Shown here: positions 9,513-29,019 of the stretch, one piece after another | How positions within the stretch are numbered: the stretch's first letter is position 1 | Layout of the letters: the number at the start of each line of letters is the position of its first letter | NCBI GenBank assembly: GCA_021014325.1 | Contig: CM037472.1 | Location: 25,281,063 to 25,345,062 of the forward strand | DNA length: 64,000 nucleotides | Source of the DNA: Plazaster borealis | Taxonomy: Eukaryota > Echinodermata > Asteroidea > Forcipulatida > Labidiasteridae | Direction: 5' to 3' | Program-made: the position numbers and the translations under genes | The notes under the pieces: generated by a model | Told to the model about the DNA's origin: nothing | Database searches by the model: none | What the model saw: the letters and a program-made list of their open reading frames with translations, nothing else

Positions 9513-9519
9513 TTTATTA

Positions 9520-10899: not shown

Positions 10900-12700
10900 A
10901 CCTGCTACGCATAACAATGTGCACTGTTGGTGATCTGATCATAGTTCAAGGGGTTGATGCGTTACACAATGACCACGTGACGACAGTAAAGTTGCGATGA
11001 CATCATCAGATCACATCAAGACATCAGTAGTGTTAGTTTTACTGTCAACTGCCACTTTTATATAACAAAAACAATATTCAGGAAACACCCATCAAAATGC
11101 TTTATTGGAAATCGTTAATGTTTCGCCAATGAAAGTAACTGCGGAAGTGTGCTTAAATTTTAATTTGAAAAATAGAAAATGTTCAGGGGTACGTCGATCA
11201 ATATCTTAGATAAAACAAATATAAAGTAAAAACTCATTCGTAGCAACAAAATCATTCAAATCTGTTTTAAATTTTCAGTAAAACCGTTGATATACAGCCC
11301 CAAGCCTATAAAAGAGGGGCCCATTTCCACGTCAACTTTTTAAAGTTTTGTTTCAATGTGTAAGATTTTGATTGTACTAATCAGTCAACTGAAATCTCAT
11401 GAATGTTTGCAAGTAAAGCAATTCGCTGCTTCCAACTTCTGTAATTTCTGTATGCAAATAACAGGATTTGTTTTGAGGTATTCAGATTTTTGTGATAAAA
11501 ACAGACTGTTCCAAGTTTGGTCAAGGCCGCCATCAGAGTCACTAGAAGCATGAAAACAATACAACAACTTATGGAAACTTTTTGCTGTGACCGCAGTATA
11601 AATTCAGCCACAGAGGTTTTGGGTTTTCAAACGATTTCTAGACTTTTACAGTTTTTCTATATTGAGGATTGTTACGGATAAACTTTATAATTAGTAGGCC
11701 TAAGCATTAAGATTTAACTAAATTATTGTTGCCATTGACCAATTGTCTTTTAGAAACCTTGTAACCATAGGCCAATGGGTTGTTGTTGATCGACAATACA
11801 AAATACAAGCGATGAGCAATTTGCGAATTCTTTCACAATTTCCTTGGTCAGTATAGAGAAGACTCCAGTTCGTGCATTTTATCGTTTTTTTTTCCTGACA
11901 TGTGTATATGCATAAATTGGTGTGCATACCACAATGTCGTTTTCTTTGCCAAGAACTTATATAATATTTCAACATACTAAAAAAAAAATAAAGAAATTTT
12001 ATCAAATGGAAGTAAAACCAACAAACTTTGATTCGCAAATTTATAGTTTGAACTTCAATAACACTGTTAAAAAGCGTTGGGGGTAAAGTTTATGCGTATT
12101 AGACAGCAATGATGAACGAAAAATACCTTACATGCAAGAGAAAAGAACAATACCTTACATCACAGCCATTAATTTGAAACCGCGTAATGGAAATATAAAG
12201 CCTTACAATATATTTTGAAAAGTATTTTCATTCTATGTTTTAAATACTGTACTCAAGTATTAGTTGGTTGCGGGCTTACGGTTTTCTTTAGCATTTATTT
12301 ATATATCATTTATATTTTTCTCTTTCTCATTGTATTCAATGGGATATGTCTTTTTAACTTTATCTTTTGTAATAATGTACTGGAGAAAAAAGTCCCAATT
12401 TAAAGAACAATTTATATTAAAACTCAATTTCATTTGGAAAGAGCAGTAGGATTTCACTCAGAGTGAATGACGTATTTATGAAACACTTGAGAACATCTTG
12501 TAGAAACTCACTGGATTGTTTTGCACTATACAAACATTGTAAATTTAATTCTGACATTCCTCCCATCAGCTTCCTAAATAGTTCCTCTCAGACGATACAT
12601 TTTATATATATCAAAATTCATCAAAAAGCACTTACAAAATACTAAGTATTATTTATAATACATACAAGAAATAGGTGATACATTAAAATAAAATAGATCA
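10900..12700. other. Interval between the inverted arms, no gene seen
   Basis: AT-rich sequence without recognisable coding exons, RNA genes or repeat ends. It lies between the inverted arms at 9520-9850 and 12,705-13,024 and may be the interior of a non-autonomous element. Confidence 0.3.
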
Positions 12701-12704
12701 ATGG

Positions 12705-13024
12705 AGTAAGAAAAATGGGCAGGATGCGGTAGGGCCTAATTCGTCATATAGCCTAGGCCTACACATAGCACACTACACATAACACATACAATGTACCAAG
12801 CCAGCGCTGTATAACACCCCACGCACCGCACGCGAAGCCCTGTACCACAGTATACATGTAGAGTAACGCTTTGCTTAGTTTACCTTATTTAAAATGCACG
12901 ACCTTTGCAGAAAAGGACCAATCAGAACGCTTCACTGTGGCCCCATAGCTAGGCGTGTGGTATGGGGAAAAAAATCGCTGGCGGGCTCGACCCACAGCCA
13001 GCGACCCCCAACCTTAACGCCTCA
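12705..13024. repeat. Inverted repeat, right arm
   Basis: This is the reverse complement of 9520-9850, followed by a stretch (about 12,980-13,024) found inverted at 33,838-33,890. The match to 33,838 stops at about 13,025, exactly where the first palindrome of the Polinton region begins, so this point is a junction. Confidence 0.7.
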
Positions 13025-13044
13025 ACTTTCGTCTACGAAAGTTG
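13023..13044. repeat. Palindrome copy 1 (outermost left)
   Basis: Arms CAACTTTCGT and ACGAAAGTTG match perfectly around a CT centre. It stands at the junction between the left-flank repeat and Polinton sequence. Confidence 0.85.
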
Positions 13045-13058
13045 AACACGATGGAGTG

Positions 13059-14949
13059 TAGCCTTGATCAAGGCGTTGGAGATTTGTTCTCAATTTTATT
13101 TTATTGTTTTCATTTTATTTTATTTGCGCCGCGCTACCCACCCGGGCTATCAACCCACCCGAGCTGTGTGCGTGGTGTCTGTGTGCGCAGACGGTGTGCG
13201 CAGACGGTGTGCGCGTGCTCGTGTGAGCTGTTTGCGTGTCTCACCGAAACAACAACGCCCTGACGGTTCTGTCTCGAAGCAATGACTCATTACTATAATG
13301 AGCACGAAAGGCGAGACCACATTGTTCAGTAGCGGAAGTCTTGTTTACTCTATATTTGGTTTGCGGTAACACCATGTGTGTATCTACTTGCCAGGTAGAG
13401 TTGTTCTTAGAGAACTGTCTTGCTTAATTCTACTACCGCGGAGTAGATTGTTTGGGTGTTCGGGAGACTTCTCAGTTCTGAAAAGAACTGTCCTGTTTAT
13501 TAACTATTACCTGGGCGGAAGGTATAGAAATAGGCTGGGACTACTACTTTAGCTTATAGGATCGTAATTAACTGTACTACCGCGGAGTCAGTTCTTGGAT
13601 TGGTCTCAACGTTTCGACTAGCTTGCTCTAGTCATCTTGTTTACTCATTCTTATGAATATGCATGCAGTATCCAGATGTGGCTACTGCACTGGCGCGCCG
13701 GTTTGAATTTGGGAATACTTTACGGTTATAATAGTATATATATCTGAAAATGTTGCGTATTCTCCTCAGCTGAGCGAGACAATGAGGGCATGACAGGAAT
13801 TAAACAATGAGGTTGAGTGGATCGATTGTTACATACATTACATACACCATTTTCCAGCAGGAAGACGCTTTTCTGATGTGTTTTTTGTAATGACGTAAGG
13901 CCCGATTGACCATCTCCTGTCTCCATTTTGCATCATTAAACAGTGATTTAATCATTGTTGGTGCATTCATTGGAGGTAGAGTATACAAAACAAAGACCTC
14001 AATAAACTACCATTGTTGATTGTTTCATCTTGAAGGCATATAGCTCATTGCAACTTTTATATCATTTGGGCCGCCCCACTAAAAAAGAGCTGCCTAACAC
14101 CAAATTTCCCAAGTACACTCACTAGAATAGGGTAGCTAAAAATCTATTTCACATGTATCATGTGTGGCTGTATCCTGTCAATTTTTGTTTAGCAGTAAAT
14201 TCTTATCAGACACTGTCTGAGAACAATTCAAAAGTATGAAGACGGTGTGGCTGCACAGAGTCGGACTTCGAGAGGACATGTCAGGAAAACACAGATGCAG
14301 AAACTACATCAACTCCAGAATTAATAACCAAGAGAATGGCGAATGATCAGCAGCGCATAAAGCTCCAGGGGCCGCGCCCGGGTTCAGCACTTGTAGCTGA
14401 TTGACCAGCCTGGGCGACAATCACGTAGATTACCGGTCCAAAATGGCTGAGACAATGCTACACACAAACGCCATTAAGTCGGTAACTACTCACATCGCAT
14501 CACATACAGCAAGCATGATACGGTACAAAGGTCATAGTGAGAGAAGCTCGTGATTGGACGTCAAAATGAATAATCCATTTGCTTCCCATCCTGTGTTGTC
14601 TGCAATAGGTCTGACGAAAGATTTAAATATTCATGAGCTGCATACTAGCGTATCCGAGAGCCCCCCATTTTCGTCCAATATTGGACGAAAATATCAAGAA
14701 ACACATTAAACCCGGAAGTTACAGACCCGTCAAGGCTGTCGGCCTGACGGCCTCCGCATGCGGAGAGTGGTACGAGTGCGGATGACCTGCGCACAGTGTG
14801 TGTATGGGCGTCGTGCGACGTGATACACACATTACGCACAGTGTATACGGGTGGGTCGTGCGATGTGATACACACCTTACGCACACCCATACGGGTGTGT
14901 TTACGGCGTCTTTTTTGGAGTGAAAATGCGACTGCCTTGATCAAGGCTA
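13059..14949. mobile_element. 1.9-kb DNA transposon with palindromic 16-bp ends and 9-bp duplication
   Basis: GATGGAGTG occurs at 13,050-13,058 and 14,950-14,958, directly flanking TAGCCTTGATCAAGGC and its exact reverse complement. A 9-bp duplication fits a Mutator-like element. The termini themselves contain the palindrome GCCTTGATCAAGGC. I see no transposase; GC-rich CACACG-type repeats fill both ends. Removing it would join the left palindrome to sequence leading to the gene at 15,079. Confidence 0.65.
13380..13650 (-). mobile_element. Penelope-type retroelement LTR fragment
   Basis: Read on the minus strand, GACTAG, a 6-nt loop and CTAGTC are followed by GAAACGTTGAGACC. This is the arrangement I associate with the hammerhead-bearing LTR of Penelope-like elements, although the CTGA box is degenerate here. 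The block also has two CTACCGCGGAGT boxes. It lies inside the 1.9-kb transposon. A better-preserved relative is at 61,760-61,990. Confidence 0.4.
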
Positions 14950-15078
14950 GATGGAGTGTAGCACGGTATACACAATGAGTGAACCTAACTGTATACGTTT
15001 ACGTTTGTGAATAACTGGGTGGAGGATCGTTAAGACCGCTACCACGGTTGAATTTAAAATTGGCAAAGCAACCGAACT

Positions 15079-15731
15079 CTATTTTAATGTCGTTTTTGAG
15101 GTAGCTGCCGCAAGCGCTTTCATTATTGAAGCTCGGGCTTCGGCTATTAGCTCGTTTTTTGCTGCTTCGTTGGTTTGAGCTGCGTATACTTTGCGGCTTT
15201 TTTTCTGAATATCAGCTTTTATTTGTCTATATTTATTTATTTCGTTTATTACAAGCTTGAACTCTTCAGGGGAGATGTGCCCATCTTGTAACGCTTGTGA
15301 GATCACATCTGAAACGCGGTTGAGCTTAGATAGAGCGAGAACACGAATCTCATCGTGTTTTTAGCTTTTACAAGGAGCCGCCGAGAGACGAACTTACCGG
15401 CAATACCGGCAAGACCACAAACACCTGCAGCTGCTTCAAGTGCAATGACAATAGGCGCGGCTATAATTGTGGAGAGCAACCCTACACCAGTAGCTCCCAT
15501 TCCAAGGCAGGATAGAATCAACACTGTGTCAATACCATCAACGATATTGATAGATGTACGGTACTTTTTGTACAGCTTACTTCTGTCTTCTATCTCTTTT
15601 TCAAGTTTGCGTTCGAGGTTGCGGATTTCAGTCAAGCGATAATTAGAGCCTGCGTTGTTGTCTTCAGGCTCAAGAACGGGATACAATCGCTCAGTTGTTT
15701 CGATGGTAGGAGCTGTTGGTAACTTAGGCAT
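15079..15731 (-). pseudogene. Polinton-associated membrane protein, frameshifted
   Basis: The start is the ATG at 15,731 (MPKLPTAPTIETTERLYPV), which overlaps the end of the preceding gene by eight bases. After a charged coiled-coil-like region (about residues 35-65) come two hydrophobic segments (about 70-120), then a basic region. A one-base shift near 15,357-15,362 moves the frame, after which a second open frame carries an EF-hand-like LQDGHISPEEFK stretch and a Lys/Ala-rich tail ending at 15,079. The arrangement matches an uncharacterised protein I have seen with Polintons of corals and other invertebrates. The function is unknown; a virion or membrane role is only a guess. Confidence 0.6.
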
Positions 15732-16406
15732 TTTCTCGAACTTCAAGCACAACAGTTATGGGGTTGCTACGGTTCTGTAGCAACAGGTTATTTTTATCTA
15801 ACGCGCGAAGGTTCAATTGATGTATGTGCCCAACCTCAAGTTTTTGTACATAGGACAAATAGGATTTATGGATTAATGTTTTTAACACCTTTGGGTGCGG
15901 CTGGGGTTATGGCTAGTAGTGTCGAAGGAGCGGTATCAACGATGTTGGAGGCTGTAGAAAGTTGATCGAGGTGTATGTATACCCACTTGTGAATTTCGAA
16001 GTTAGAGGGTTTGTCCCCCTCGTATTCCCCATCAATCCAACCTTTTTCGCTGATACCCAACAGGCGGCGTATATCAGAGGGCATTTTTATGGCGCCGCCC
16101 CTTGGAATGCTGAACATGACTAGATTTGTTGCTTTATCTATCTCGACCGATACTTGGGGCAGCTCTTTTGTGAACAGATTTTGTAGGTATTCAAAGGTAT
16201 ATAATCCAGCAGGGATCATAATCTTTCGAGGTTTATCATCCGAGGTAGAGCGCCACAAAATTCCAGCCGAAGACCCAATATTGCGATGGCCAACCTAATA
16301 ATGCAAACCCTCTGAGGGCAGCATAGAGCTTGCCATCTGTATAATCGATTACAGTCTGGAGAAGCAACGCTTCTTCATTTTGAATATCGGTTAGTGTCAC
16401 AAACAT
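15724..16406 (-). pseudogene. Polinton accessory protein, paralogue A (frameshifted)
   Basis: The ATG at 16,406 begins MFVTLTDIQNEEALLLQ. The frame is lost near 16,300 and resumes as a segment with GLYTFEYLQNLF, LLGISEKGW and IHLDQLSTASNIVD. It shifts again near 15,870 and ends with LQNRSNPITVVLEV at 15,724. The block order equals that of the neighbour at 16,485-17,168, so the two are tandem paralogues. The family, known to me only as a conserved unknown of invertebrate Polintons, probably encodes a virion protein, but that is inference. Its stop overlaps the start of the next gene (ATGCCTAA), suggesting a compact transcription unit. Confidence 0.6.
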
Positions 16407-16410
16407 AACT

Positions 16411-16432
16411 AATCTTTTGTCTACGAAAGACT
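16411..16432. repeat. Palindrome copy, degenerate
   Basis: AATCTTTTGT and ACGAAAGACT face each other around CT with two mismatches. It sits four bases upstream of the start codon of paralogue A. Confidence 0.7.
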
Positions 16433-16484
16433 GTTAATGCAGTTATACCAAACAAAGCTTATAGCTTCAACACAGATGCATCTA

Positions 16485-17168
16485 CTAGACAGGCTTAATC
16501 TCAAGTACTGCAGTCATAGAGATGGGATTGTTATACATATCCTCACCATGTTCATCTAACACGAGAAAGTTTAGTTGATATATGTGTTCTGCTTTAAGTT
16601 GTTTGTACATAGAGTAAGCAAGGTTAACGTTTACACTGCTTTCAGATTTGAACGGGGTTGGTTAGCAGCGACGAGGGGGCGCCATCAATAATATTAGAAG
16701 CCGCATAAAGTTGATTGAGGTGTATAGAAACCAGGTTAGGAGTGTGGAACCTTGAGGGTCTTATTCCTTCTGTTTCTCCTCGGAACCATAGATCGCTTAA
16801 AGACCAGGGAGCATGCCCAATAGTGAACTCATTGCATCATCAATTTTAAAATACACAGCACCATAACTGATATTGATAGTGACAAACCCCGTTGTTTTGT
16901 TCATTCGGAGTTCTATTTGGGGTATATTTTCTTTGAAAACCTGTTGCATATCTTCAAAGGTGTACATTCCTCGAACAACTGTAATCGAGGTATAACTAGG
17001 ACTATTATAATCATAGGCAAACTTAAGATCAATATTAGAGTCAACATCAAGAGTGTTTTTTTTTAAATGCAACTCTCTTAGGGCAACACAGAGTTTACCA
17101 TTTACATTGTTAATTGCGGGTTGGAGAAGCGGCGCTTCATTTTGAATATTGGTTTGTGTAACAAACAT
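16485..17168 (-). pseudogene. Polinton accessory protein, paralogue B (frameshifted)
   Basis: The ATG at 17,168 starts MFVTQTNIQNEAPLLQ, nearly the same as paralogue A. The first 124 codons are intact and include GMYTFEDMQQVFKENIPQIE and SSLLGM. A stop at 16,797 follows a frame break. The reading continues in other frames with IHLNQLYAASNIIDGAPSSLL and finishes with ISMTAVLEIKPV at 16,485. Upstream it faces the divergent plus-strand gene at 17,242 across about 70 bases that must hold both promoters. The upstream regions of A and B are also similar, so the duplication included regulatory DNA. The function is unknown. Confidence 0.6.
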
Positions 17169-17189
17169 AGCGAACTTTGCAAATAATCT

Positions 17190-17214
17190 TTTGAACTTAT
17201 ACGAGTATAACTTA
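17190..17214. repeat. Degenerate second-type palindrome between divergent genes
   Basis: AACTTATAC and GTATAACTT are near-inverted around GA. The related perfect copy is at 22,176-22,198. It is nested in an outer AACTTTG...CAAAGTT pair (about 17,172-17,231) and occupies the place where paralogue A has the degenerate copy at 16,411. Confidence 0.5.
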
Positions 17215-17241
17215 AACCGTGCAAACAAAGTTTGTGTAGTT

Positions 17242-18474
17242 ATGTCTAACCAAGCTTTTAGCTTTAACATAGATGCATCTTACCAAACAGGTGGGGTATA
17301 CTCCGCAAAATCTCAACCCGTATTGCAACATGTTACAATACAGGTTGATACGGGGGCGGCGAGCTTTGACACCGTCTTTCCGGACATACGGCGGAGCGGT
17401 ATAGGCTGCCACATGTACAAAGTGATGATATAGTGGACACGTGGAGCTCAAACCCGATGAAATTTTGGCAAAATAAGATTAACTTTGCAGTGTGGTGTGC
17501 TACCACAGGGTGCGGTGTCTCTGCAGAAGACTATCTTAGCTCTAAGGTCCCGATGGTGCGATCAGTCTACCGCTTTCACGTATACTACCAGGTGCGAAGG
17601 ATTCTTGAAGAGATGCAGGTGCCACTCCCACAGGATGACACTTGGGATGCCTTTGATACCCCATACAACCAAAGGGCATATGAGCAAATTTGCGCGGAGT
17701 TTGGTGTCTCACCGCACACCGACTGGCGGCAGAACATCGACCAAAATAGTGGTCTTGGAACGCCGTATCATTGGTGGAAAGGTTCAGTGCTCTCTATGAA
17801 AGAAGTGAGCGATGATTTGGTTGCTAGCGGGGGTCTTAGCCCCAGCTTTGGTGTTTCGTCGAACGACTATATAAAAGACCGCATGAGCTTTGGTGATAGA
17901 CCGGCTACGTTCAGCGTCGACTACATCGGCCAGGGCCCAGAAGGAGACCAAGCATGGACGACATTTGTTCTCGACAAGTCGGAGGGCTTCACCCAACCTG
18001 GGGTTGAAAGAATCAACGACTCTATCCGAACATACGTGTGGGCTATCCTAGGCGCACAGGCACAGATTCGCTCGAGTATTCTCGGCACCGGTGCCGCATT
18101 TGACACCCAGAAACAGTTCTTAGCAAACGTTGAGGATGCGGTCTCAAGCCCCGTAGACCTCCCGAGTCCTCCCGAGTGCGGTGGCACGCTACCAAGACAT
18201 GCTTCGATACGCCCGCTCTAAGGTTGTCTATGTATTCGGAATTGGTTTGTATATGGCTCCCAGCAACATGGAGTTGCAGATTGGAACTATTCAGGACTAC
18301 AACAACGAGATTGTGATCGCGGAGCAGGGGCAAAATTTGGGCTTTAACAACGGTATCAATGCAGCAGTCGAGAGTTTGTTACCTGAAAAAGATATGGAGG
18401 GGCCTCCTGCAAGGCCAGCACGCCTAGCTCAAACTAATTTTTCGCCGAAAGTTAGTTTGATTGGCACAGCCTGA
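17242..18474 (+). pseudogene. Conserved Polinton protein of unknown function (two frameshifts)
   Basis: The ATG at 17,242 opens MSNQAFSFNIDASYQTGG. A one-base loss at about 17,430 shifts the frame, after which a 250-residue stretch carries MKFWQNKINFAVWCATTGC, NDSIRTYVWAILGAQAQ and FDTQKQFLANVEDAV. A 10-bp tandem duplication (18,158-18,177) breaks it again, and the rest (RYQDMLRYARSKVVYVFG, GLYMAPS) ends at a TGA at 18,472. I recognise the family as a conserved, uncharacterised protein next to Polinton capsid genes in cnidarians. Its location suggests a structural or packaging role. The final 12 residues are encoded by a palindrome. Confidence 0.65.
18430..18459. repeat. Extended palindrome in a C-terminal coding tail
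   Basis: CAAACTAA plus TTTTTCG and CGAAA plus GTTAGTTTG form a stem of about 14 bp with one mismatch. It encodes QTNFSPKVSL at the end of the preceding gene. Confidence 0.7.
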
Positions 18475-18485
18475 TATCGACAAAC

Positions 18486-18507
18486 AAACTTTCATATATG
18501 AAAGTTT
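18486..18507. repeat. Palindrome copy, perfect
   Basis: Arms AAACTTTCAT and ATGAAAGTTT match fully around AT. It lies 12 bases after the stop codon at 18,474. Confidence 0.85.
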
Positions 18508-18530
18508 AGCAGAAGGGCAAGCGCACTGTG

Positions 18531-18647
18531 ATGGGCGAACTGCACTTGTTGTTGGTGGCGTTGCTCCTGGTCTCGGTTGGCTCGCTCTACGCTAAACCCG
18601 TCTACGATAAAACTTTATTAACTAATCTTTTATTTATGAAAGATTAA
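18531..18647 (+). CDS. Short ORF with signal-peptide-like start
   Basis: ATG at 18,531 encodes 38 residues beginning MGELHLLLVALLLVSVGSLYA, a hydrophobic stretch like a signal peptide or a small membrane anchor, then a polar tail. Its last codons and stop lie in the palindrome at 18,624-18,645, which also contains the stop of the converging minus-strand gene. It may be a real micropeptide or chance; only the hydrophobic start and the placement support it. Confidence 0.35.
   Translation: MGELHLLLVALLLVSVGSLYAKPVYDKTLLTNLLFMKD
18624..18645. repeat. Palindrome at the meeting point of two converging genes
   Basis: Arms AATCTTTTAT and ATGAAAGATT (one mismatch) surround TT. The minus-strand gene stops inside it (18,630-18,632), and the plus-strand short ORF stops at its right edge (18,645-18,647). 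Confidence 0.8.
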
Positions 18648-19332
18648 AGTTAACAGTACACCGCCGATGGCAACAATTATTGCCCATAGGTTTCCCGCGA
18701 GCCAGCCAGCAGTTTTACTCAAGAGGTTGAGGAGCCACGATATAATGCCTCCGATGATGCCCGGTAGTGCGGCTGCAGCCTTTCCAGCTAATTGGGCTAG
18801 AAGGCGCCCGAGAGCTTGCAAATGTTTTTTCGCCCACTCTTTTATCCCATCTTTACTTGCGGGAAGTGTGGGAGGTGTTGGCGGTGTAACCCCGCCAGCT
18901 GCCCCACCAGTCAAGGCAAGAACCAGAGTGCTGATGGCAAAGCCCAGTGCAGTGATAATGGTGGCTATGGTCACACCCTGCTCGCGGAACAGGGTCCGTA
19001 GCCGATCGGCCAGAGTTTTGTTTTTATCTAGAACGCTAGATATGGTTTCACGAATTTGGCGGAACTGTGACCGAAGTTGTTGGTTGAGGGCATCAACGAT
19101 GTCTCAAGCCGCTGCGAGATCATCTTCGGCTTTTGTAATTTCACATTTGATTTGGTCCGTTTTCTCAGTTGTTCCGGGTTGCTTAAGCTCTTCGCGATAG
19201 CCCTCGATCAGCTGCTGGAGAGAAACTATTTTGCTCTCTTGCACCGCTTTCGTGCCACGCAAAGTTTTCAGGGCTTTGTCAAGTCCTAGAATCTCTCTCA
19301 TAGGCAAAATATTATCTTCTTCAGTAAATCCT

Positions 19333-19354
19333 AATCTTTCGTCTACGAAAGATT
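19333..19354. repeat. Palindrome inside the coiled-coil gene
   Basis: Arms AATCTTTCGT and ACGAAAGATT match perfectly around CT. On the minus strand it is read in frame as KSFVDERL with no interruption of the ORF. Confidence 0.9.
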
Positions 19355-19773
19355 TTGCACAAGATTGGTCAATAGATGACGTGTTAAGGTAATCATTAAC
19401 CAATTCATCTGGTACATCATCATTTGCTTGTGCTGCATTTTGTGCTATATCAGCAACCTTTTCTAACTCTTGAAGGATAGGTTGAGAATGACGACGCAGT
19501 GTACTGTCGTACCCAGGCAGGTTGAGATAATCTCGAATAGCATTTGAGCCCTCAAGGCTAAAACTTTGGGCAATAGTACCCAAGCCCAAAAACTTTGGAG
19601 AGCCTTTAGTAGCGCTTAGCCGGATCTTTTTATCACCCTCTACCCAGTAAAGCGTTTTACCATTGTCGCTGACCTCAAACCGCTTGTATTCTTTTCTATT
19701 AGGTTGAAGGGTGTAGGTACGATCTATCTCTGTATAGAAAGCATCTACTAAACGGTCTCGCTGTTCTCGCAGC

Positions 19774-19963
19774 TCGTCTGTACTGAGGTCGCCGGTCAAT
19801 TGGTCAATGCGGTCGCCGTAATCATTAGCCGATAGCCTATCCAAGGGTGCCTCGATAGGAGGTTCAGGTCGTCTGTACGGAGGTCGCCGGTCAATTGGTT
19901 AATGCGGTCGCCGTAATCATTAGCCGATAGCCTATCCAAGGGTGCCTCGATAGGAGGTTCAGG
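19774..19963. repeat. 95-bp tandem duplication
   Basis: Two adjacent 95-bp units differ at only a few bases. The unit length is not a multiple of three, so the duplication shifts the frame of the minus-strand gene around it. Confidence 0.85.
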
Positions 19964-20014
19964 AAAAATAACACTGGTGTCTTCTTTGCCTTCTGGTTGT
20001 TTTTCGGGTTGCAT

Positions 20015-20144
20015 TAAAATCGTTCATTTCAAAGCCACCTTCTGCCATATTGAATACAAAAGTTAACTTAACTTATATTAAACACTCGCCAAGGTTGAAT
20101 AAACACAAAGTTTTGAAGATTGTCTACAGAAAAGTTTGGTTTGA
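20015..20144. promoter_or_regulatory. Divergent intergenic region
   Basis: These 130 bp separate the ATG of the minus-strand coiled-coil gene from the ATG of the capsid gene. They must hold both promoters. The DNA is AT-rich, with a half palindrome (GTCTACAGAAAAGTTT) just before the capsid start. I see no clear TATA box. Confidence 0.35.
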
Positions 20145-21428
20145 ATGGCATCGTCAAAGTACGGGCGCAAACTGAATCCTCTTAGAAGCCTGCGGGATCC
20201 ACTCGGGATCAAAGGCATATGGCAGAGCGTGGTTGTAACCAACAACCCCTCCACTATCGACCAAAATCAGCAGCTCTTGGTCCGCTTTCCCAACCTTGGC
20301 GCCCAGGATGTGATTGTTCCTGGAACAGCCCGCCTCGCATTTACCATCGCCCTGACCTCGACCGACGACAAACGAACAGTGGTTCAAAACCTTGGCCAAG
20401 CCGTTGTGAAGAAAAAGACAATCAGGATCAGTGGTAATGAGGTCATGTCTATAGATGACAGCGATGTTATCGGCTGCTACACCGACCTTTGGAAAACGTT
20501 GGGAGAGCGCCGGTCTCAGGTCTACCAGGGTATTGATGTGGCGGAAGACGCTAACATGCTTAAACTGAGGGTGGGCGCTGGAGATGGTGATGGTTCTACG
20601 GCGCAAGACAAGGCTGTTGCAGATGCATACAGCAACAGATTTAGCATTCCACTAGACTTTGAACTGTTGGAGAGCCACATGCCATTCTTCCAGTCAGGCC
20701 TTGGTGACTGATTGGAGTACGAGCTTACCTTTAATGACTACAGCCGCGTTATAATGGCAACAGGTGATACAGATGCTAGCTACGTCATCGACAACATCTC
20801 TCTCGAGTTTGAAATTATGAGCGAGCCAAACTTAGCCCGAATAATTCGCATTCAGTATACTGCGCGAGTTGCCATCTTGTATGACCGCATTTTGCGCCAC
20901 CGCAAGGTCACCCTCAACAAGAGTGATACGCTGTGGAACGTCAATCTTAATGTTCCAGCCCGAAGCTTTAAGGCTGGAGCGGCGACCACATTTAACAGAA
21001 ATACAGAATTGTTCTGTAACCCCAAGATCGAAAAAGTTGAGGTCATAGTCGAAGGGAAGCCAAACCAGATGTATGCCCAGGGTATGCGTGGGTACCAACA
21101 GTGGGATGAAGTTCGAAAGTACTTCGCTAGCAGCCCTTCAACCAAGCGCCATCCCACGACTGCAATGGTCACCAAAGACCTAGCATTAGCTGATGTAACG
21201 GTAGGAGAGTATTTTACAACAAAGTACGGCCTATGGCTGGACTTGAGAAGCAACGATGATGACTCACTGCACGGCAGCGGCCGGTGCATAGAAAATGCAA
21301 GTGAGGGGGTCACAGTCCAGATCACCAAAAAGGCAGAAACGGCGGGCACATTGAACATGTATTTGTATGTTATCATGGATGCTCAGCTCAACATCGAAAA
21401 TGGTCGATATATCAGTGCGCTCTACTAA
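20145..21428 (+). pseudogene. Polinton major capsid protein (double jelly-roll type), one in-frame stop
   Basis: The ORF begins MASSKYGRKLNPLRSLRDP and runs 188 codons to TGA at 20,709-20,711. It then continues in the same frame for 238 codons to TAA at 21,426, about 427 residues in all. Recognisable blocks are NPSTIDQNQQLLVRFPNLG, KKKTIRISGNEVMSIDDSD, FFQSGLGD right before the stop, then YELTFNDYSRVIMATGD, ILYDRILRHRKVTLNKSD and MYLYVIMDAQLNIENGRYIS. These match the capsid protein of invertebrate Polintons, which forms trimeric hexons. The TGA replaces what I remember as an Arg codon, consistent with CGA to TGA. The ATPase gene follows, overlapping its end. Confidence 0.8.
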
Positions 21429-21432
21429 ACCA

Positions 21433-21452
21433 AACTTTTGTAAACAAAAGTT
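21433..21452. repeat. Palindrome just after the capsid stop
   Basis: AACTTTTGT and ACAAAAGTT match perfectly around AA. It starts five bases after the capsid stop and is read in the ATPase frame as NFCKQKL. Confidence 0.85.
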
Positions 21453-21463
21453 AAGTATAAGTA

Positions 21464-21485
21464 AAACTTTCGTACACGAAAGTTT
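21464..21485. repeat. Palindrome in the ATPase N-terminal extension
   Basis: Arms AAACTTTCGT and ACGAAAGTTT match perfectly around AC, read in frame as KTFVHESL. A 34-base segment including it (21,455-21,488) recurs at 22,845-22,878 with one difference. Confidence 0.9.
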
Positions 21486-22076
21486 AGACAAAAGTAAAAA
21501 CTTATACGAGGATGAGTTTTTACCCCACTCGGCCATCATCTGTGGCCAGACTGGCTGTGGGAAAACAGTCTTTATCGTCATACTCTGCCCCACAATTCGT
21601 TGGAACAAAACGTACCACGAGCGATCCTGGGTGTGGACAGACCCGGAGGTCTATATCATCGACCCTGGGATGGGCTTCAAAAGTGTTTGCGAGCTTTCTA
21701 CTCGATTTTTGCTGGCGAGCCGACATTGTACATCATCGACGACTGCTCAGCTAGTAAAGCTCTTACCAAAAAGAAAGACATGCTGTCTGAGCTTGCGTTC
21801 TCGGGGCGCCACGCCTCACAATCTGTGTGGGTCTTGACGCAGAAGTACAACTCGGTTCTTAAGGACCTCCGCGAGCAGACTAAGTGGATAGGGCTCTTCC
21901 ACTGCAAGGACAGAGACTCTTTTGAAGATTGCCTGCGAGAGAACGACGACAGAGGAGCGAGATCTGCTTAGACAGCAGCTATCTAAAGCTAAACATGCTA
22001 AGCTTATACTAAAGACTGCTCAGCCGGTTGCTCATCAGTTGTTAACATAGCTTAATAGATCGCTTAGCATATTACT

Positions 22077-22376
22077 ATGTGGGAGCAAACACAGCTAGCT
22101 ATACAAACTATACAGCTAGCAGTGGTTTTTATGATGTTTGTAGAATATGTTAGACTCAAGCGCAGAATAATGCATAAACTTATACAGAGTATAAGTTTGA
22201 TCTCAAAAGTAAACGTTCGTATACAAAAGTTTGTTTGCTCACATAATCTTTTGCCTGAAAACTTTTCTACAGGAAAGTTTGATTGGATTATGGATTGCGA
22301 TGATGTGATCGACCAATTGTTGCAAGAGGTTCCCGACGAAAGCCCCGTCCCGATGCTAAACAAAAGTTTGAGCTGA
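22077..22376 (+). CDS. Small Polinton ORF with N-terminal membrane segment and three palindromes
   Basis: The 99-residue frame starts MWEQTQLAIQTIQLAVVFMM, a hydrophobic stretch likely to span a membrane, followed by a basic region and an acidic C-terminus. Palindromes at 22,176, 22,211 and 22,259 make up about a fifth of it and none interrupts the frame. I do not recognise the protein. It follows the ATPase by 26 bases and precedes the next ORF by 65, so co-expression is plausible. Confidence 0.5.
   Translation: MWEQTQLAIQTIQLAVVFMMFVEYVRLKRRIMHKLIQSISLISKVNVRIQKFVCSHNLLPENFSTGKFDWIMDCDDVIDQLLQEVPDESPVPMLNKSLS
22176..22198. repeat. Second-type palindrome, perfect
   Basis: Arms AAACTTATAC and GTATAAGTTT match fully around AGA. 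They share the AAACTT/AAGTTT ends with the main family but have a different core. Confidence 0.8.
22211..22232. repeat. Palindrome copy, two mismatches
   Basis: AAACGTTCGT and ACAAAAGTTT oppose each other around AT. It is read in frame as NVRIQKF in the small ORF. Confidence 0.65.
22245..22284. repeat. 40-bp composite palindrome, inverted copy at 22,400-22,439
   Basis: The block contains the palindrome AAACTTTTCT/AGGAAAGTTT (22,259-22,280) with an asymmetric flank AATCTTTTGCCTG on one side. The reverse complement of 22,400-22,439 matches it with a few differences, so flank and palindrome were copied together. Confidence 0.75.
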
Positions 22377-22404
22377 ACTCGTCTACGAAAGATTCAGATA
22401 ATCT

Positions 22405-22426
22405 AAACTTTTCTGTAGAAAAGTTT
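22405..22426. repeat. Palindrome between two ORFs, perfect
   Basis: Arms AAACTTTTCT and AGAAAAGTTT match fully around GT. It lies in the 65-bp gap between the ORFs at 22,376 and 22,442. Confidence 0.85.
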
Positions 22427-22441
22427 CAGGCAAAAGATTGT

Positions 22442-23131
22442 TTGCAAGACCAAAAACGGACCCGTCTGGCTGCAATTGTGGCTGGCGGCTCAGCCCTAAA
22501 ATATATAGGAACCCGACTAACCCTTGCACAACTTGACGTGATGAGCGATGAAGAGATCTCTAAGCACTATAGCCGCTATGAGGCACGACTAGGGGCCTCA
22601 ATGACAAAAACCCTCGGAGCGTCTGCATTGCAGATGTATGCACTGGCGGCTAGCACATTTCTACCCATTCCACCCGAAAATAATCCCCAGCTCGTCATAG
22701 ACCTCGAGGAGGACCCCTTTGTCGGACATGCGCTGACGACAGCCTGCTGCGAGCTGTATTATCGCTATGGGATGTACTTAGCTCCGCTAACAGCAGCGAT
22801 GACAACTGCTAAGCACTGTCAATTGAAAGACACGTATAAATATTGTATAAGTAAAACTGTCGTACACGAAAGTTTAGATGACACAAAACCTGGAAACGAC
22901 ATCGACAGAAGCAACACAAGCTCTGGAGATGACAGCAGCGCAATACCTAGAGACGACATCGACGCTGTTTTAAGCCAAGAGACTAAAGATCCAAAAAAAG
23001 TTGAGGCTGGTCACAAAGGTGCAGCAGCTAGAAAAGCAAAACAAGAAGCGCTGAAAGAGCAGCTGCGAAAGGCCAAACAGAGTCTCAAGCGTAACCAATC
23101 AAACCCTCTACCATTGCAGACCGCCCTGTAG
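22442..23131 (+). CDS. Conserved Polinton protein of unknown function, 229 codons
   Basis: The frame opens without a clear ATG at 22,442 (TTG); internal Met residues follow at DVMSDEEISKHYSRYEARL. A conserved first part has ASALQMYALAASTFLPIPPE and DPFVGHALTTACCELYYRYG, followed by APLTAAMTTAKHCQ. A palindrome then encodes SKTVVHESL at the domain boundary, followed by an acidic linker and a Lys/Arg/Gln-rich helix. I know the first part as an uncharacterised protein of invertebrate Polintons. This is the only long gene of the element without a visible break. The role is unknown; the basic tail could bind nucleic acid. Confidence 0.55.
   Translation: MQDQKRTRLAAIVAGGSALKYIGTRLTLAQLDVMSDEEISKHYSRYEARLGASMTKTLGASALQMYALAASTFLPIPPENNPQLVIDLEEDPFVGHALTTACCELYYRYGMYLAPLTAAMTTAKHCQLKDTYKYCISKTVVHESLDDTKPGNDIDRSNTSSGDDSSAIPRDDIDAVLSQETKDPKKVEAGHKGAAARKAKQEALKEQLRKAKQSLKRNQSNPLPLQTAL
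22854..22875. repeat. Palindrome at a protein domain boundary
   Basis: AAACTGTCGT and ACGAAAGTTT (one mismatch) surround AC, read in frame as KTVVHESL. It belongs to the 34-base segment shared with 21,455-21,488. Confidence 0.85.
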
Positions 23132-23403
23132 GTCTCAACGAGCAAAAGCTCCCCTCGGGCGTGGGTATTCGGTACCTCTACCAGCCAGGTGAGCTAGAAG
23201 GTGGGCATCGTCGCGCAACTGACCCAGTATGGTCCCTCCGGGTGCACCGGCTTGGGCGTTCAGTTACTAAACCCAGAGAGCCCGTTCTTTATTATCTTGC
23301 GAAAGATCGTGGGGTACCGGCTCGTGGGTTTGTACGAGAAGAGCTACTTGTGGTGCCTCCCAACACCCAGCTGCCATCTGCTAAACTTTTGCTTACATCT
23401 TAG
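23095..23403 (+). pseudogene. Possible integrase C-terminal tail
   Basis: An open frame without ATG encodes DRPVGLNEQKLPSGVG, then ATDPVWSLRVHRLGRSV, EPVLYYLAKD and GFVREELLVVPP, and stops at 23,401. The W-S-V, YYL and F-EEL spacing resembles the small C-terminal domain of Polinton or retroviral integrases. I recall similar ends in coral Polinton integrases. No catalytic D,D-35-E core lies upstream, so this would be a remnant after a deletion. It overlaps the converging polymerase end by 11 bases. It could instead be an unrelated conserved tail. Confidence 0.4.
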
Positions 23404-23430
23404 CGAAAATCTCGTTGATAAAGTCATCCC

Positions 23431-23450
23431 AACTTTCGTCTTCAAAAGTT
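23431..23450. repeat. Palindrome in the polymerase tail, degenerate
   Basis: AACTTTCGTC and TTCAAAAGTT are imperfect arms read in frame on the minus strand as QTFEDES. It is 10 bases from the perfect copy at 23,461. Confidence 0.6.
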
Positions 23451-23460
23451 TGTTTTGCAG

Positions 23461-23482
23461 AATCTTTCGTAGACGAAAGATT
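23461..23482. repeat. Palindrome in the polymerase tail, perfect
   Basis: AATCTTTCGT and ACGAAAGATT match fully around AG. On the minus strand it is read as NLSSTKDS, a different frame from the KSFVDERL reading at 19,333. Confidence 0.9.
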
Positions 23483-24444
23483 AAGGTCCCTGTGTCCATA
23501 GGCTAGTGTGGTGACACCGTCTTCAGCTATCCACCTCTTTGTGTCCAAGGGGGAGAGTGATACCTTGTTCAGGTGCTGCCCGTATATTTTATGTCTCTCA
23601 GAATGCAGCACATCCATCCTGTGGCGGAAGGTCTTTTTTGTGATAAAGCCTCTTTGTACTGCCCATGTCAAATTTGTTTTCTCACAACGGACTTTTTCAC
23701 ACCTTTGGCCTTCTTGATGTTATTTCCATCAGCCTCGAGAATAGAGTACATCTTAGGCCGCAGCCCCACATACTCGGTGATGGGGCGCCCGGCGCACTCG
23801 TCCTTCATCTTACCCAATACCTTATTGTATACCGTGTTGTGGAGGTAGTGCTCTTTGGGGTAGTCAGATGTGTCGTACAGGTTCTGGTCCTCGGCTGTGT
23901 CTTGGTACACATCCTCGGTCTGGATATCGAGGAGGAGGGAGTCTGTGTCTGTGTAAAGGAGCTGACACCGATCACCATACCGAGCCTTTATCTGATTATA
24001 ATAAAAGTCGCACATACCCACGTAGGCGGGTCGGTTGAGTACCAGGCGGCTCTTATGGACCTGTATCGCTGCGAGGTTGTCATCAAAGATGTTTGCCCGA
24101 GCAAAGGCCGGGCTGGCAATAAGTCGCCTTAGCTTATCTTCTTCATCACTGCGCACCAGCTTAACGTCGACCCGCTTGCGTAGGTTCTCCATCGTTTTCC
24201 CAAATACACTATTGCTCATGAGTTTGTAGAGGTTCTTTTCGAAGTCGCTGGTTGCCTCCTTTCAGAGCTCCGTGTTCTTCCGGATGTAGGGTTCCATCCA
24301 AATGCTCTGCTCAAAGTGAAGAGCTCGATGGATCTTTTTCAAGCGCATGCCGAGAGAGAGGTACAGCTGTAGGTTGCGATAGTGTAGCACATATCGTTCT
24401 TTGTCGCGAAGATTGGGAACCAGCTCTTCAACCTCTGTTGGTGC

Positions 24445-24468
24445 CAATCTTTTGCCTGCAAAAGATTG
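24445..24468. repeat. Palindrome inside the polymerase, perfect 11-bp arms
   Basis: CAATCTTTTGC and GCAAAAGATTG match fully around CT. It is read in frame as QSFAGKRL between polymerase motif A and the NLRDKERYVLHYRNLQLYLS block. Confidence 0.9.
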
Positions 24469-24623
24469 AAGGTTGTGCTGATACTCAGACATCCACTCTC
24501 TCTGAACGACCATGCGCTCCGGCGCTAAGGGATAGGCGTTGTGTGCGTCGTGTAGCTCTACAGGGTACTCTAAGTCTACCTCTAAGATGTAGCCCTCTAG
24601 ACTGTCTACTGGATGCTCTGTTA

Positions 24624-24645
24624 AAACTTTTGTAGACAAAAGCTT
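24624..24645. repeat. Palindrome inside the polymerase palm
   Basis: AAACTTTTGT and ACAAAAGCTT (one mismatch) surround AG. It is read as KLLSTKVL about 15 residues after the motif A block. Confidence 0.85.
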
Positions 24646-25068
24646 GAGCTGCGGCTCCTCCACCCACTCAAAGCCGCCTGTAGGCAGCGACTGGCTCATT
24701 GCCCACCCATACAGGTTGTTAGCATCCAGGTAAGAAATGTACCTGTTCGGCTCGGTAGGGTTAAAGCCCTCAACCAAAGGGTTGTTAGCTCTCGCAAAGC
24801 GCTTAGATACCATGGAGATACCACCTCACATCCCCTTTTCGATGAAGAGGTGCTAGTCATAGTCTGTGATCAGTTTGAGTTCTACACCCGTCTTTTTGAG
24901 CAACGCGTCCCAAGAGAGGCCAGGACTGGTGTAGTAATGTGCGGGGTCTAAGTTGTAATGCCACATGCAGGCCTTCCGGAAGGTCTCAAAGACATCTACC
25001 AAAAGGAGCACGTCTGTGCGGTTGTAGAGGTCGTGGTAGTCTCCCATATTGCGGCATCCAAAGGTCTC

Positions 25069-25233
25069 CCACACCTTTTGCGCATGAACGTAGTCGGCCT
25101 TCCACACCTTTTGCGCATTAACGTAGTCGGCCTCCCACACCTTTTGCGCATGAACGTAGTCGGCCTCCCACACCTTTTGTGCGTGAACGTAGTCGGTCTT
25201 CAACATCTTTTGCGTATAAACGTAGTCGGTCTC
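25069..25233 (-). repeat. 33-bp in-frame tandem expansion in the polymerase
   Basis: Five 33-bp units start at about 25,069, 25,102, 25,135, 25,168 and 25,201. Each encodes 11 residues like ADYVHAQKVWE. One unit would be expected in a normal polymerase, just before the FGCRNMGDYHDLYNRTDV block. The expansion keeps the frame. Confidence 0.9.
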
Positions 25234-27352
25234 GCTAATGTACTCGTCGGACAGCTTGCTGTAGAAAGTTTCCTTCGTAGGGAGACCTGGCTCTTTAAAC
25301 CTTTCCCAAGAGTCCATGTACTTGTACAGGTAGACACCCTTGCGCAACAAAAGATTGCGCCTTTCTTTACATGGCTCGTACTGAGCCGTTATTTGGAAAG
25401 ACTCTGGCGGGTTGGCTGCTACTAACTTGTCAAGAGAGAACAGCAAGAACTGGACGCTGTCGATAAATCGGAGCTGACCAAGGGGGAAGCTGATGTATTT
25501 CTCGGTGTTGTTTGGGATGCAGGAAATCTTACCCTCTACCTTGGAAATAGCCTGTATCAAGAGGTGAGAATCATAGCCCCGCAAATTGTGGAAGACCACT
25601 GGTATGGATGTGGTTTTAGGGCTCAGCCGCAGCTTCAGGTTGCAGGCGTTGTGTGCGGCACCTCTGTATTTTCCAGTGATATGACAGTGATCGCGAACAG
25701 TATCCCCCTCAAGTGGTTTCTCACACACGTGGCAGGTGGTAGCTGTCTTAAAAGCCCGCCGGTCTTTAGGGGTCATCTTCATTGCTTTAGGGTTGGCTAG
25801 CACCGCTTTGATCTTTTGCTCCTCATCCTGGATTGCCTTTAAGAAGTGCTCCGCCGCGTCATGTCCTCGGTATTCTACGGGTAGTTCTGCCCGTCCATCA
25901 CAGCGAACGACTACATAGCAATAGCTACAAGTCTCGTGGTGCTGCGTCTTCCGAGTGTTGCTCTTCGTGGGGTCAAGCTCGGGCTCCTCTACCTTTGTAG
26001 TTAGAGCCTCAAAGTCGGCGTAGATAATAAAAGGGGCGGAAAACTGCTTGTGGTAGTTTTAAAAGGTCAGCTTATTTTTTCCCTCTTCTGGCATCTCTAC
26101 CCTCACTGCCGTCTGACCGATCCCACAGCATTCAGGCTTGTGAGCTTCTAGGAGGTCTTCTCTCGAGTGCCCATGGAGACATCTCTCACAAAAGTGCTTA
26201 CGATGCTGGTGCTTGTTTTCTTGGTAGAGAAGACGGTTTAAGTTTTTGACCCAAGTGTAGTGAAACTTGCCTGCTTTCTCGATCAGCAAGAGGTTAATCC
26301 TGAGCATGTCCATGGGCTGTTTGCTTAGCCCGTGGACGATAACACCCTTATCCCAGCCGAATATGTTAATAGCCAAGTTGTTCTGTTTTTCAACCTTCTG
26401 GATCTGAGAGTAAGGAGTAGGAGCCTCAATCCCCGTGAAATCTAGGTCATCAGTGGGATATTTGGATGGTCTATGCGCGTAAAGACCATCTCAGGCAGTA
26501 ATCATCTTTGTTCTTTACGTTGATGACCGTCTTCTTGCTTCTCACCGCTGCGGGCAGTGGAATGTATGAGCTGCCCCTCAGAGGCTGGTACCAAGCAATG
26601 TCAAGCCACAGCATCTCACTCGGTTAACCATCCACCCCGAGCCCCTTTGAGTAAATTTTTCAAGCGTCTCCTGGATGCGGGGGAAAGCCCTGTCTAGTGC
26701 CTCATTAATATCGTTAGCCTGCAAAACAGACTCTTGTTTGTGGCGGAGCACGGGATCAGTGTATTCCTCACTCCCATCGAGATTAACTTTCCGAAGTTGA
26801 AGCTTGAGAGCCAGCTGAAACTTAATACCATTAAGAGCTTGAAGCTCTTCCACAAGTTTTCGGTAAATCTGGGAGCAAACGTCGTCCAAAAAAGCTCTGG
26901 GTCTGCGCTAAGGAGATGCCCTTTAGGCACGAACATCTCCCAACCCCGCAGATATCTCCCGACAACCCGTGGGGTCTGCCTAAAGACTAGCTCATCCGTC
27001 TCTTTATGTTTATACAGCTCTAGAGTCTCATTCTGGTAGTCTTGGACCGTTCTAAACATTTTTGAAGTACTTGTCATTTATAATAGTTACGGTATAATCT
27101 ACAACGTATTTCTCTAATAGGGAGTCATTAACTCACAAAACTTAAATTTCTCTATCAACAGTAGAGAGCACGAGTTTTGCTAGTAATAAGATAAACTACA
27201 ACACACATATCTCTAATTGGGTGTTCATTTACAAAACTTGGGGGATTTCCCATGCACATTGCGCAATAAATTGGGAATTCCCCTAAAGATAAAAAACCAT
27301 TTAGACATAAATGCATTCCTAAGATATTCAATCTGCGAAATGAAAGGACTCA

Positions 27353-27556
27353 ATGTTTGTGCTTGGGTTAAAGTACCACTTAGCAAAGATCCGTAAAGGT
27401 AGAAAGATTTCTATATCCTGTAAATCTTGTGGTAATGGAGTTCGGAGTGAAATACAGCTATGCCGAAACTGTGGCCGAGATATAATAAGACTTAGGTACA
27501 TAGCTCAACAAAAAAAGCTAAACAACAATTTTCGTTGGTGTTGTCACAGCTCTTAG
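27353..27556 (+). CDS. Small zinc-ribbon-like ORF
   Basis: The 67-residue ORF MFVLGLKYHLAKIRKGRK has two Cys pairs (SCKSCGNG and LCRNCGRDI) spaced like a zinc ribbon and is rich in Lys and Arg. It lies divergent to the polymerase and converges on the palindrome at 27,569. I do not recognise it. A small nucleic-acid-binding protein of the element is possible. Confidence 0.4.
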   Translation: MFVLGLKYHLAKIRKGRKISISCKSCGNGVRSEIQLCRNCGRDIIRLRYIAQQKKLNNNFRWCCHSS

Positions 27557-27568
27557 CCAGTGTTCATC

Positions 27569-27588
27569 AACTTTCGTAGACGAAAGTT
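27569..27588. repeat. Palindrome copy (outermost right), perfect
   Basis: AACTTTCGT and ACGAAAGTT match fully around AG. It separates the converging ORFs at 27,353-27,556 and 27,587-27,790; the stop of the latter is inside or at its edge. Confidence 0.85.
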
Positions 27589-27790
27589 ACATCACAGTTT
27601 TTATTATGCAGTGTGCCGGGCAAATCTTCTTGTGCCTCCACAAGGAGAAGCTGCAGCTCAGCTCCCCACCACAATCCACACATATGTATTGCCGAGGTTC
27701 TTGTAAGCAAGGTGTCTTACGGTTCTCCAGGTGTCTCTTCAGGTTGTAGTACCTCTTAACCCTGTAGTGGACGTTACCGACTTTTGCATT
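27587..27790 (-). CDS. C2HC zinc-finger ORF fragment
   Basis: The open frame encodes YYNLKRHLENRKTPC then YICVDCGGELSCSFSLWRHK and CPAHC. This gives a C-x2-C-x12-H-x3-C finger preceded by a helix with His and Cys. No in-frame ATG is present, so it may be the end of a longer gene or a remnant. It ends at TAA 27,587 inside the palindrome. Similar small fingers occur in Polintons, but the assignment is only an inference. Confidence 0.4.
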   Translation of the reverse strand, partial: NAKVGNVHYRVKRYYNLKRHLENRKTPCLQEPRQYICVDCGGELSCSFSLWRHKKICPAHCIIKTVM

Positions 27791-28990
27791 CTATCACTAT
27801 CCTTGGCAGTCAACAACTGACACTTTTGTTACTGCGTGCACGCGGGCATATACTGCCCCACAAATGGACCCCAAGCATTCCCAACTTCTTTTAGACAGTC
27901 CACAGATTGTATAACATGTCACAGGTTTTTACCTCTAGTTTAATTAGAGCCTGCGAGCGGTTCGATTGTGAATAACGGAACGTTGCTCTAAAAGAAAACG
28001 CAACAGACAGCAAATAAGTTTGATCCTCTTCACTCAGTGGTGATTGTTATTAAACACAAATTATCTCAACATATATCAAAACAGTGAAAATGAATGTCAA
28101 TACAGATTATCAATGATTCAACACTTCAGTGGTTTAAGTAAAAAAGCAGTGTAACGACTCACAAAAATAGTAACTTGCAATCAGATTTGTTTCAACCAAG
28201 AATTCAATACAGCTATTAATTCCTACAGTGGTTGTCTCTGTCTAGAGTATTGGATGGAATGAAATAAAATATGAACGCTAAAATTCAACAAACACTTTTC
28301 AACAACTGGATGGTATTGGATCAGAAATTATCAGAAATCAAACCACTAATCATCAATGAACGTAATGAATACGGTAGTCAAAAAATAACACAAGGACATT
28401 CAACGGTATAAATGCAATCAGCAATACAATAATAAAACTGTACTAACTTCTTCAGTAATTAATAAATTTTGATAAATGTCACGCAATCAACAATGCTTCA
28501 TCAACGAGAACCAAAAGTCTAACAACTCAAAGAAATATTGACTTCAAGAAAAGATAACAATATAGCCCGCAATTTAGGCAAAACACAACGGACACTGAAG
28601 AAATTAATAACAACAAAATAGAAGAGGAATAATATATATATATATATGGATCTTAGCTGGGTTCTGTGCTTCTACAAGAACTTGAACTGGACGTAGTCTT
28701 GAAAAGGTGACATCAGATGGGCTCCGAAGTCCAAAGAATACGATCCGTCGAGTCTCAGGAAAAGGCAACAAAGGGGGGTTCAACGGGGCAAGTTGGAGTG
28801 ACGAACCGGGTCGGCCCTACCAAAGCGATGACCTATAGGACTAGTGTCTGTATCAAGAGAACACCATGAAGGATGCAAGAAAGGATTGGTTAGGAACTAC
28901 TAGTCTGTCAGCTTAAAGAGTCCATATGCATTTTTGTATACAATCTTTGAAACTTTCAGAATCATCTATCTACACATCAACAAATCCAAA
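27791..28990. other. Right flank of the Polinton, nothing recognised
   Basis: AT-rich sequence with a short (TA)n at 28,629-28,646. No exon, terminal repeat or RNA gene could be supported. The far end of the Polinton could lie in here. Confidence 0.3.
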
Positions 28991-29019
28991 TCCACTTGAT
29001 GCCTAATTTTCCTATCACC

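Follow-up and report, generated by a model that had tools for sequence, protein, structure and literature searches.

Until now, in-frame multiplication of hairpins has been known chiefly from mitochondria and from Rickettsia. Hairpin repeats termed RHE and SIR are described from the mitochondrial DNA of sponges, placozoans and fungi (PMC2800124, PMC7813641), and those of Allomyces are presented as elements without flanking duplications (PMC2800124). Stable structures in coding sequence are portrayed as rare, the Rickettsia palindromic elements being one example, and template switching is discussed as a cause of the palindromes of nematomorphs (PMC6649704). Template switching is also reported to homogenise and perfect the arms of imperfect inverted repeats (PMC8604942, PMC8794818). 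The present text concerns a family of short palindromes in an apparent Polinton, a virus-like DNA element, in the genome of the sea star Plazaster borealis (assembly GCA_021014325.1, contig CM037472.1, positions 25,281,063 to 25,345,062). The whole of this stretch, 64,000 nucleotides (nt) long, is called the window, and all coordinates refer to it. With a probability of about 0.58, these palindromes represent short, dispersed hairpin repeats of one family, which has multiplied by insertion inside this Polinton lineage.

The original prediction listed 13 palindromes with arms of 9-11 bp, no more than one mismatch and a 2-nt centre, and all 13 proved to be as described. A degenerate symmetric 22-mer, written from the shape of these 13 and used as the query of a scan, detects 13 sites at up to one mismatch, 16 at up to two and 17 at up to three in the region 12954-27700 (14.7 kb). 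The rest of the window (1-12900 and 27701-64000, 49.2 kb) has none, none and two at the same thresholds, and when the region is shuffled 100 times with dinucleotides preserved, the means are 0, 0 and 0.07 and the maxima 0, 0 and 1. The proposed comparison with shuffled sequence thus comes out in favour of enrichment, with 16 sites at up to two mismatches against none in 100 shuffles. With no such site outside the region and none in the shuffles, the family is real and, within the window, local. The claim that it is absent outside a 14.6-kb element holds for this window, but 14.6 kb is simply the span from the first palindrome to the last and does not define where the element ends. Eight other long palindromes (score of at least 11) lie in the window outside the region, and the family sequence is absent from them.

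Further copies of the family occur at 16411, 22211 and 23430 (each with at most one mismatch to the query) and at 20116 (three mismatches). A second type of palindrome, with arms AAACTTATAC, is found at 22176 and in degenerate form at 21494 and 17186; a related palindrome lies at 18429 and a truncated copy at 22378. Counting second-type, related, truncated, degenerate and nested ones, there are 22 palindrome sites in total, the degenerate copies in this number having been picked after inspection of the sequence. The units are 20-24 nt long and the composites about 37 nt, and a symmetric core, CTTT..AAAG, is conserved in nearly all copies. In the order of the window, the sites, with the peptides they encode where these are read, are as follows (ORF, open reading frame; aa, amino acids).

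13023-13044, no strand: outermost left palindrome, outside recognised genes; over all 22 nt it is identical to the reverse complement of the copy at 27568
16411-16432, no strand: palindrome with 2 arm mismatches, between ORFs
17186-17215, minus strand: degenerate second-type palindrome beside a half arm of the first family, within ORF 16797-17279
18429-18460, plus strand: related imperfect palindrome of 32 nt, at the end of ORF 18157-18474
18486-18507, no strand: perfect palindrome between converging ORFs
18624-18645, minus strand: palindrome across the stop codon of ORF 18630-19103
19333-19354, minus strand: perfect palindrome in ORF 19104-19898, within a variable linker and translated KSFVDERL
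20116-20137, no strand: degenerate copy with 3 mismatches, just upstream of ORF 20145-20711
21432-21453, plus strand: palindrome, PNFCKQKL, just past ORF 20712-21428 and within the start of the ATPase-like ORF
21464-21485, plus strand: perfect palindrome, KTFVHESL, in the ATPase-like ORF before its GQTGCGKT motif; its 34-nt context is repeated at 22845
21494-21523, plus strand: degenerate second-type palindrome in the ATPase-like ORF
22176-22198, plus strand: second-type palindrome with AAACTTATAC arms, accessory gene linker
22211-22232, plus strand: palindrome copy, VNVRIQKF, accessory gene linker
22246-22282, plus strand: composite of the left part of a 24445-like palindrome followed by palindrome 22259-22280
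22378-22393, plus strand: truncated copy, one arm and the centre, accessory gene
22403-22441, plus strand: inverted copy of the 22246 composite, with palindrome 22405-22426 inside
22854-22875, plus strand: palindrome, KTVVHESL, accessory protein tail
23430-23451, minus strand: palindrome with 3 arm mismatches, polymerase C-terminal tail
23461-23482, minus strand: perfect palindrome, NLSSTKD, polymerase C-terminal tail
24445-24468, minus strand: perfect 24-nt palindrome, QSFAGKRL, polymerase loop, with 3 extra aa missing from 119 of 120 relatives
24624-24645, minus strand: palindrome, KLLSTKVL, polymerase loop, with 3 extra aa missing from 120 of 120 relatives
27568-27589, no strand: outermost right palindrome, outside recognised genes

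For seven single copies the folding energy of the DNA hairpin is -5.6 to -7.3 kcal/mol, and Rfam recognises no family at its gathering score anywhere in the window. The sites are placed as had been predicted, between genes, at ORF stops and, free of stops, inside polymerase, ATPase-like and accessory ORFs: 17 of the 22 overlap ORFs and 16 of these 17 are read without a stop, which is partly so by construction as ORFs were defined as stop-to-stop stretches. Conserved cores, delimited after looking and amounting to 3873 bp, contain none of the 22 sites where 5.85 are expected (P 0.0011).

Insertion was assessed at the level of the proteins, from residues of the window that at least 90% of the covering relatives lack. 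The polymerase piece compared, of 187 aa with 120 relatives, has exactly two such blocks, each of 3 aa, and these lie inside palindromes 24624 and 24445. All 120 relatives lack the first block and 119 of them the second; the chance of both blocks overlapping the two palindromes is 0.012. In the accessory protein, 42 aa make up the linker that precedes the MDCD motif, as against 8-22 aa in relatives (the motif pattern was found in 32 of 120) and 16 aa in the nearest of them (P0001), which puts the excess in the window at 78 nt. The palindromic DNA in that linker (22176-22198, 22211-22232 and 22246-22282) totals 82 nt, and each of the 26 columns inserted there is missing from 26 to 28 of the 28 covering relatives. 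The polymerase tail that holds 23430 and 23461 extends 32 aa past the YGH motif. Searches with the polymerase alignment gave 15 distant loci, 2 from IMG/VR and 13 from GTDB (89 kb in all, many of them short), and in the four that keep the corresponding GH (L059, L062, L067 and L068) the tail past it measures 4-13 aa. Protein lengths of relatives therefore differ at palindrome sites. The accessory tail around 22854 is about 3 aa longer than that of P0001, a difference that does not decide for or against insertion.

The arms of the palindromes change together. In a gapless alignment of 16 copies, compared with 500 shuffles, 93.8% of the cells are paired, 15 cells are changed on both sides (4.7 when shuffled) and the covariation score is 0.287 (0.108 when shuffled), values that no shuffle reaches. 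Two measures are weaker: pairs with two-sided change number 5 against 2.4 (reached by 2 of 500), and the count of further pair types is 7 against 5.5 (reached by 44 of 500). Because palindromes were the original search target, covariation was retested at the four columns in which the scan leaves the arms free: complementary bases stand at 55 of 64 positions, where shuffling of partners gives 37.0 (0 of 5000 reach the observed value), and with only the 13 strict copies included the figures are 44 of 52 and 32.1 (1 of 5000), all these figures being open to inflation by relatedness among the copies. Decay of CpG was considered as a source of the paired changes and rejected, as the exchange of A-T for T-A at column 3 is incompatible with it and depletion of CpG in the region is mild (0.84). 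Copies are also nested and duplicated. The composite at 22246-22282, a palindrome within a palindrome, recurs inverted at 22403-22441 with 41 of 46 aligned positions identical, and a 34-nt block containing one palindrome stands at 21455 and again, 97% identical, at 22845.

Spread by insertion is favoured because the family is far above chance, private insertions coincide with palindromes, the arms cov­ary, a composite is nested and recurs inverted, and target duplications are absent. Protein-primed replication exposes single strands, and hairpins promote template switching. Copying may have proceeded by such switching where hairpins form in single-stranded intermediates of replication, which would be the strands displaced in protein-primed replication, and the same process would maintain the similarity of the two arms; the endonuclease VII-like domain of the element itself might supply the breaks. 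The copies would have spread at a time when the genes remained under constraint, and the survivors would lie mainly in linkers, tails and intergenic gaps. A wider form of this proposal, namely that self-spreading, protein-coding mini-hairpins exist beyond bacteria and organelles, in a virus-like element of a eukaryote, that they spread via template switching on the single strands of protein-primed replication, and that they are tolerated in frame in polymerase, ATPase-like and accessory genes, is given slightly less than even odds.

Several observations weigh against multiplication by insertion. The net gain at each polymerase site is 9 nt whereas the palindromes there are of 22-24 nt, so native sequence must have been replaced or lost and the two are not clean insertions; template switching accounts for such replacement more readily than clean transposition does. 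At the position of 24445, three extra residues are present in one relative (P0159) as well. A second accessory linker (128 nt) is no longer than those of 30 relatives can be (18-45 aa) and so offers no insertion test, and the linker around 19333 is too variable for one. The avoidance of conserved sequence is weak and suggestive only: if the polymerase piece, which holds two copies, is counted as core, 2 of the 22 sites fall in cores against 6.7 expected (P 0.019); when only the 16 strict copies are considered, 2 do so and 4.9 are expected (P 0.093). One of the two composites folds poorly (-3.7 kcal/mol, z -1.4). The 15 distant loci have no related palindrome family, showing one site at three mismatches (in L071), although with many of these loci short, its absence there says little on Polintons generally. 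Finally, the copying mechanism outlined above is conjectural.

The palindromes could instead be binding sites for a dimeric protein encoded by the element, acting in replication, packaging, segregation or transcription, and held by selection at about one per kb. The symmetric core common to nearly all copies, the spread of copies across the element and the position of the outermost two near both ends of the gene block, as exact reverse complements over 22 nt, are all in keeping with such sites. A dimer, however, would accept variants in either arm independently, yet the arms covary; extra residues accompany copies in two proteins, which gain of sites by point mutation does not predict; and nested and truncated copies have no obvious role as sites. 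A fixed dimer site fits less well because the arm types differ and covary and because copies bring extra residues, and we consider it unlikely.

Conventional transposition, of a tiny non-autonomous transposon or of leftover terminal repeats, by a transposase of the host or of the element, would explain a discrete repeated unit and the nesting of copies. The target duplications that the original prediction had suggested looking for are nevertheless missing from the flanks, the mean being 2.75 nt at 16 sites as against 2.71 nt at 3000 random positions. Nor is there a flank motif, information reaching at most 0.22 bit and being as high at positions 10-12 as at positions 1-2. The net gains at the polymerase sites are unlike the length of the unit, and the 49.2 kb of neighbouring DNA contain no copy. 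Transposition of this kind is decidedly improbable.

Hairpins that end transcripts, as in the Mimiviridae, whose transcripts are reported to end at hairpin-forming palindromes (PMC4402537), would account for the copies in the polymerase tail and for those that coincide with, or lie close to, the stops of ORFs 18157-18474, 18630-19103 and 20712-21428. The copies before GQTGCGKT, before the conserved accessory core and in mid-polymerase would, however, truncate the message. As several copies precede or sit within conserved domains, this function fits poorly and has very little to recommend it as a general explanation. Separate origin of each palindrome, without dispersal and through template switching confined to imperfect inverted repeats at the site, draws on the reported homogenising of arms (PMC8604942, PMC8794818) but is already disfavoured by the one sequence family common to sixteen sites, by the composite of about 46 nt that recurs inverted and by the 34-nt block found at both 21455 and 22845, and it is the least credible of the alternatives.

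Three genes are distinguished in the element that carries the palindromes.

23393-26490, minus strand: type-B DNA polymerase in several ORFs, with an in-frame stop, frame changes and an endonuclease VII-like region
22068-23131, plus strand: conserved accessory gene with no assigned function, in two overlapping frames
21355-21971, plus strand: ATPase-like gene in two frames, with weak family matches

The 187-aa middle piece of the polymerase is matched by 5906 proteins at E<=1e-10. Among the 120 matches listed, 35 have a precomputed PF03175 domain and two have species names, Mytilus edulis and Elysia marginata, both molluscs. Another polymerase piece has an endonuclease VII domain; the endonuclease VII-like region (24856-26058) is common to 13 of the 15 distant loci, which are without the palindrome family, and it is therefore a general part of such polymerases and not special here. 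An activity that cuts cruciforms is possible beside the palindromes from this region, which is suggestive, not specific. The polymerase ORF 24853-26058 also contains a 33-nt (11-aa) tandem repeat in four to five in-frame copies, at 25063-25233. For the ATPase-like ORF pair the matches are to Pox_A32 (E 0.009, under the curated cut-off) and to the PHROG terminase large subunit (E 1.2e-05). ORFs 20145-21428 have no PHROG match, and the label capsid-like for them derives only from gene order. Stops or frame changes split the polymerase, ATPase-like and accessory genes, so this is a decayed copy.

The assignment to the Polintons rests on the type-B polymerase and the gene set. No retroviral-type integrase was found in the ORF pieces scanned with Pfam, which were part of the ORFs of a decayed copy. 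No terminal inverted repeats were found between 12953-16000 and 25501-30500, the sole good match being the outermost pair of palindromes; the ends may be lost or lie elsewhere. As would be expected of a nuclear genome, the neighbouring DNA holds a reverse transcriptase ORF and pieces of an asparaginase domain, the asparaginase pieces lying in three ORFs at 40571-45024 and being apparently exons of a host gene.

Two other insertion-like stretches were set aside. Residues 6-18 of the accessory C piece resemble an insertion without a palindrome and are read as an out-of-frame stretch overlapping the preceding ORF. The piece from ORF 19104-19898 has two short blocks that are gaps in 28 of 31 relatives, with no palindrome near, and three relatives (P0122-P0124) share them. 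At and beyond the start of the same ORF, in 19770-19959, a 95-nt stretch is tandemly repeated with 97% identity. Long inverted arms at 9581-10064 and 12588-12952, with 91-95% complementarity and about 2.5-3.2 kb apart, end beside the first palindrome and are probably a separate DNA transposon. Outside the element, near-perfect palindromes of 53 and 62 nt at 34268-34320 and 55168-55229 are unrelated to the family, and at 29026-29219 two similar GGCCATTTTGAA palindromes, separated by 169 nt, may belong to a further repeat unit.

Searches of other sequences for the palindromes themselves gave nothing that could be retained. A core 20-mer matches 58 IMG/VR contigs at one exact site each, and these are put down to chance because none of the 58 stretches has more than two sites at up to three mismatches. 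Peptide signatures of the palindromes, sought in 157 proteins, have a single match besides those of the window (NLLHTKD in P0001, at the tail position of 22854), which is compatible with chance. IMG/VR has no relatives for the accessory alignment, nor for the ATPase-like and capsid-like pieces. One of the distant polymerase-bearing IMG/VR contigs (L060) has an 18-nt perfect palindrome twice, at 4666-4683 and 4791-4808, 125 nt apart.

Among the papers that literature searches listed, none describes such a palindrome family in a Polinton or Maverick, judged by titles and the openings of abstracts. If the reading of spread by insertion is true, proliferation of hairpins befalls nuclear virus-like elements as well as mitochondria and Rickettsia, and adds peptides to the replication and packaging proteins of such elements. 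Replication that exposes single strands would become testable as the driver of hairpin spread, and the palindromes would be private marks by which copies of one Polinton lineage could be ordered.

Comparison with known systems leaves a graded series of likenesses. A classical DNA transposon or miniature inverted-repeat transposable element is expected to have target-site duplications, and none are present here. The Mimiviridae likewise have palindromes at gene ends, in large DNA viruses, as described in PMC4402537; unlike those hairpins, many copies here are intragenic and one sequence is shared. The coding palindromes of nematomorph mitochondria resemble the present ones in lying in protein-coding genes with arms kept matched, but are described as long (up to 284 bp), perfect and within genes (PMC6649704), whereas here one short family runs across several genes.

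The likeness to the protein-coding palindromic elements of Rickettsia, raised in the original prediction, stands as far as behaviour goes, since private insertions coincide with palindromes and nearly all intragenic copies are stop-free; descent from or membership of that family is not shown, and RHE and SIR are closer. Rickettsia palindromic elements are bacterial and roughly 100-150 bp long. The palindromes here, unlike those longer elements, are of 22-24 bp and belong to a eukaryotic element. In Rickettsia, by the account in PMC6649704, palindromic DNA lies in frame in many genes and is translated, a likeness that here is seen at the protein level; the Rickettsia elements are also said there to lose the identity of their arms over time, whereas here the arms stay matched or change jointly.

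The nearest known kind is the RHE and SIR of mitochondrial DNA, a closer analogue likened by description and not by sequence. These too are depicted as short hairpin families dispersed in one replicon, mostly intergenic and also in coding genes (PMC2800124, PMC7813641). The family here is likewise short and capable of forming hairpins, with 16 copies at up to two mismatches in 14.7 kb. RHE and SIR are organellar, whereas this family resides in a nuclear virus-like element with a type-B polymerase of its own.

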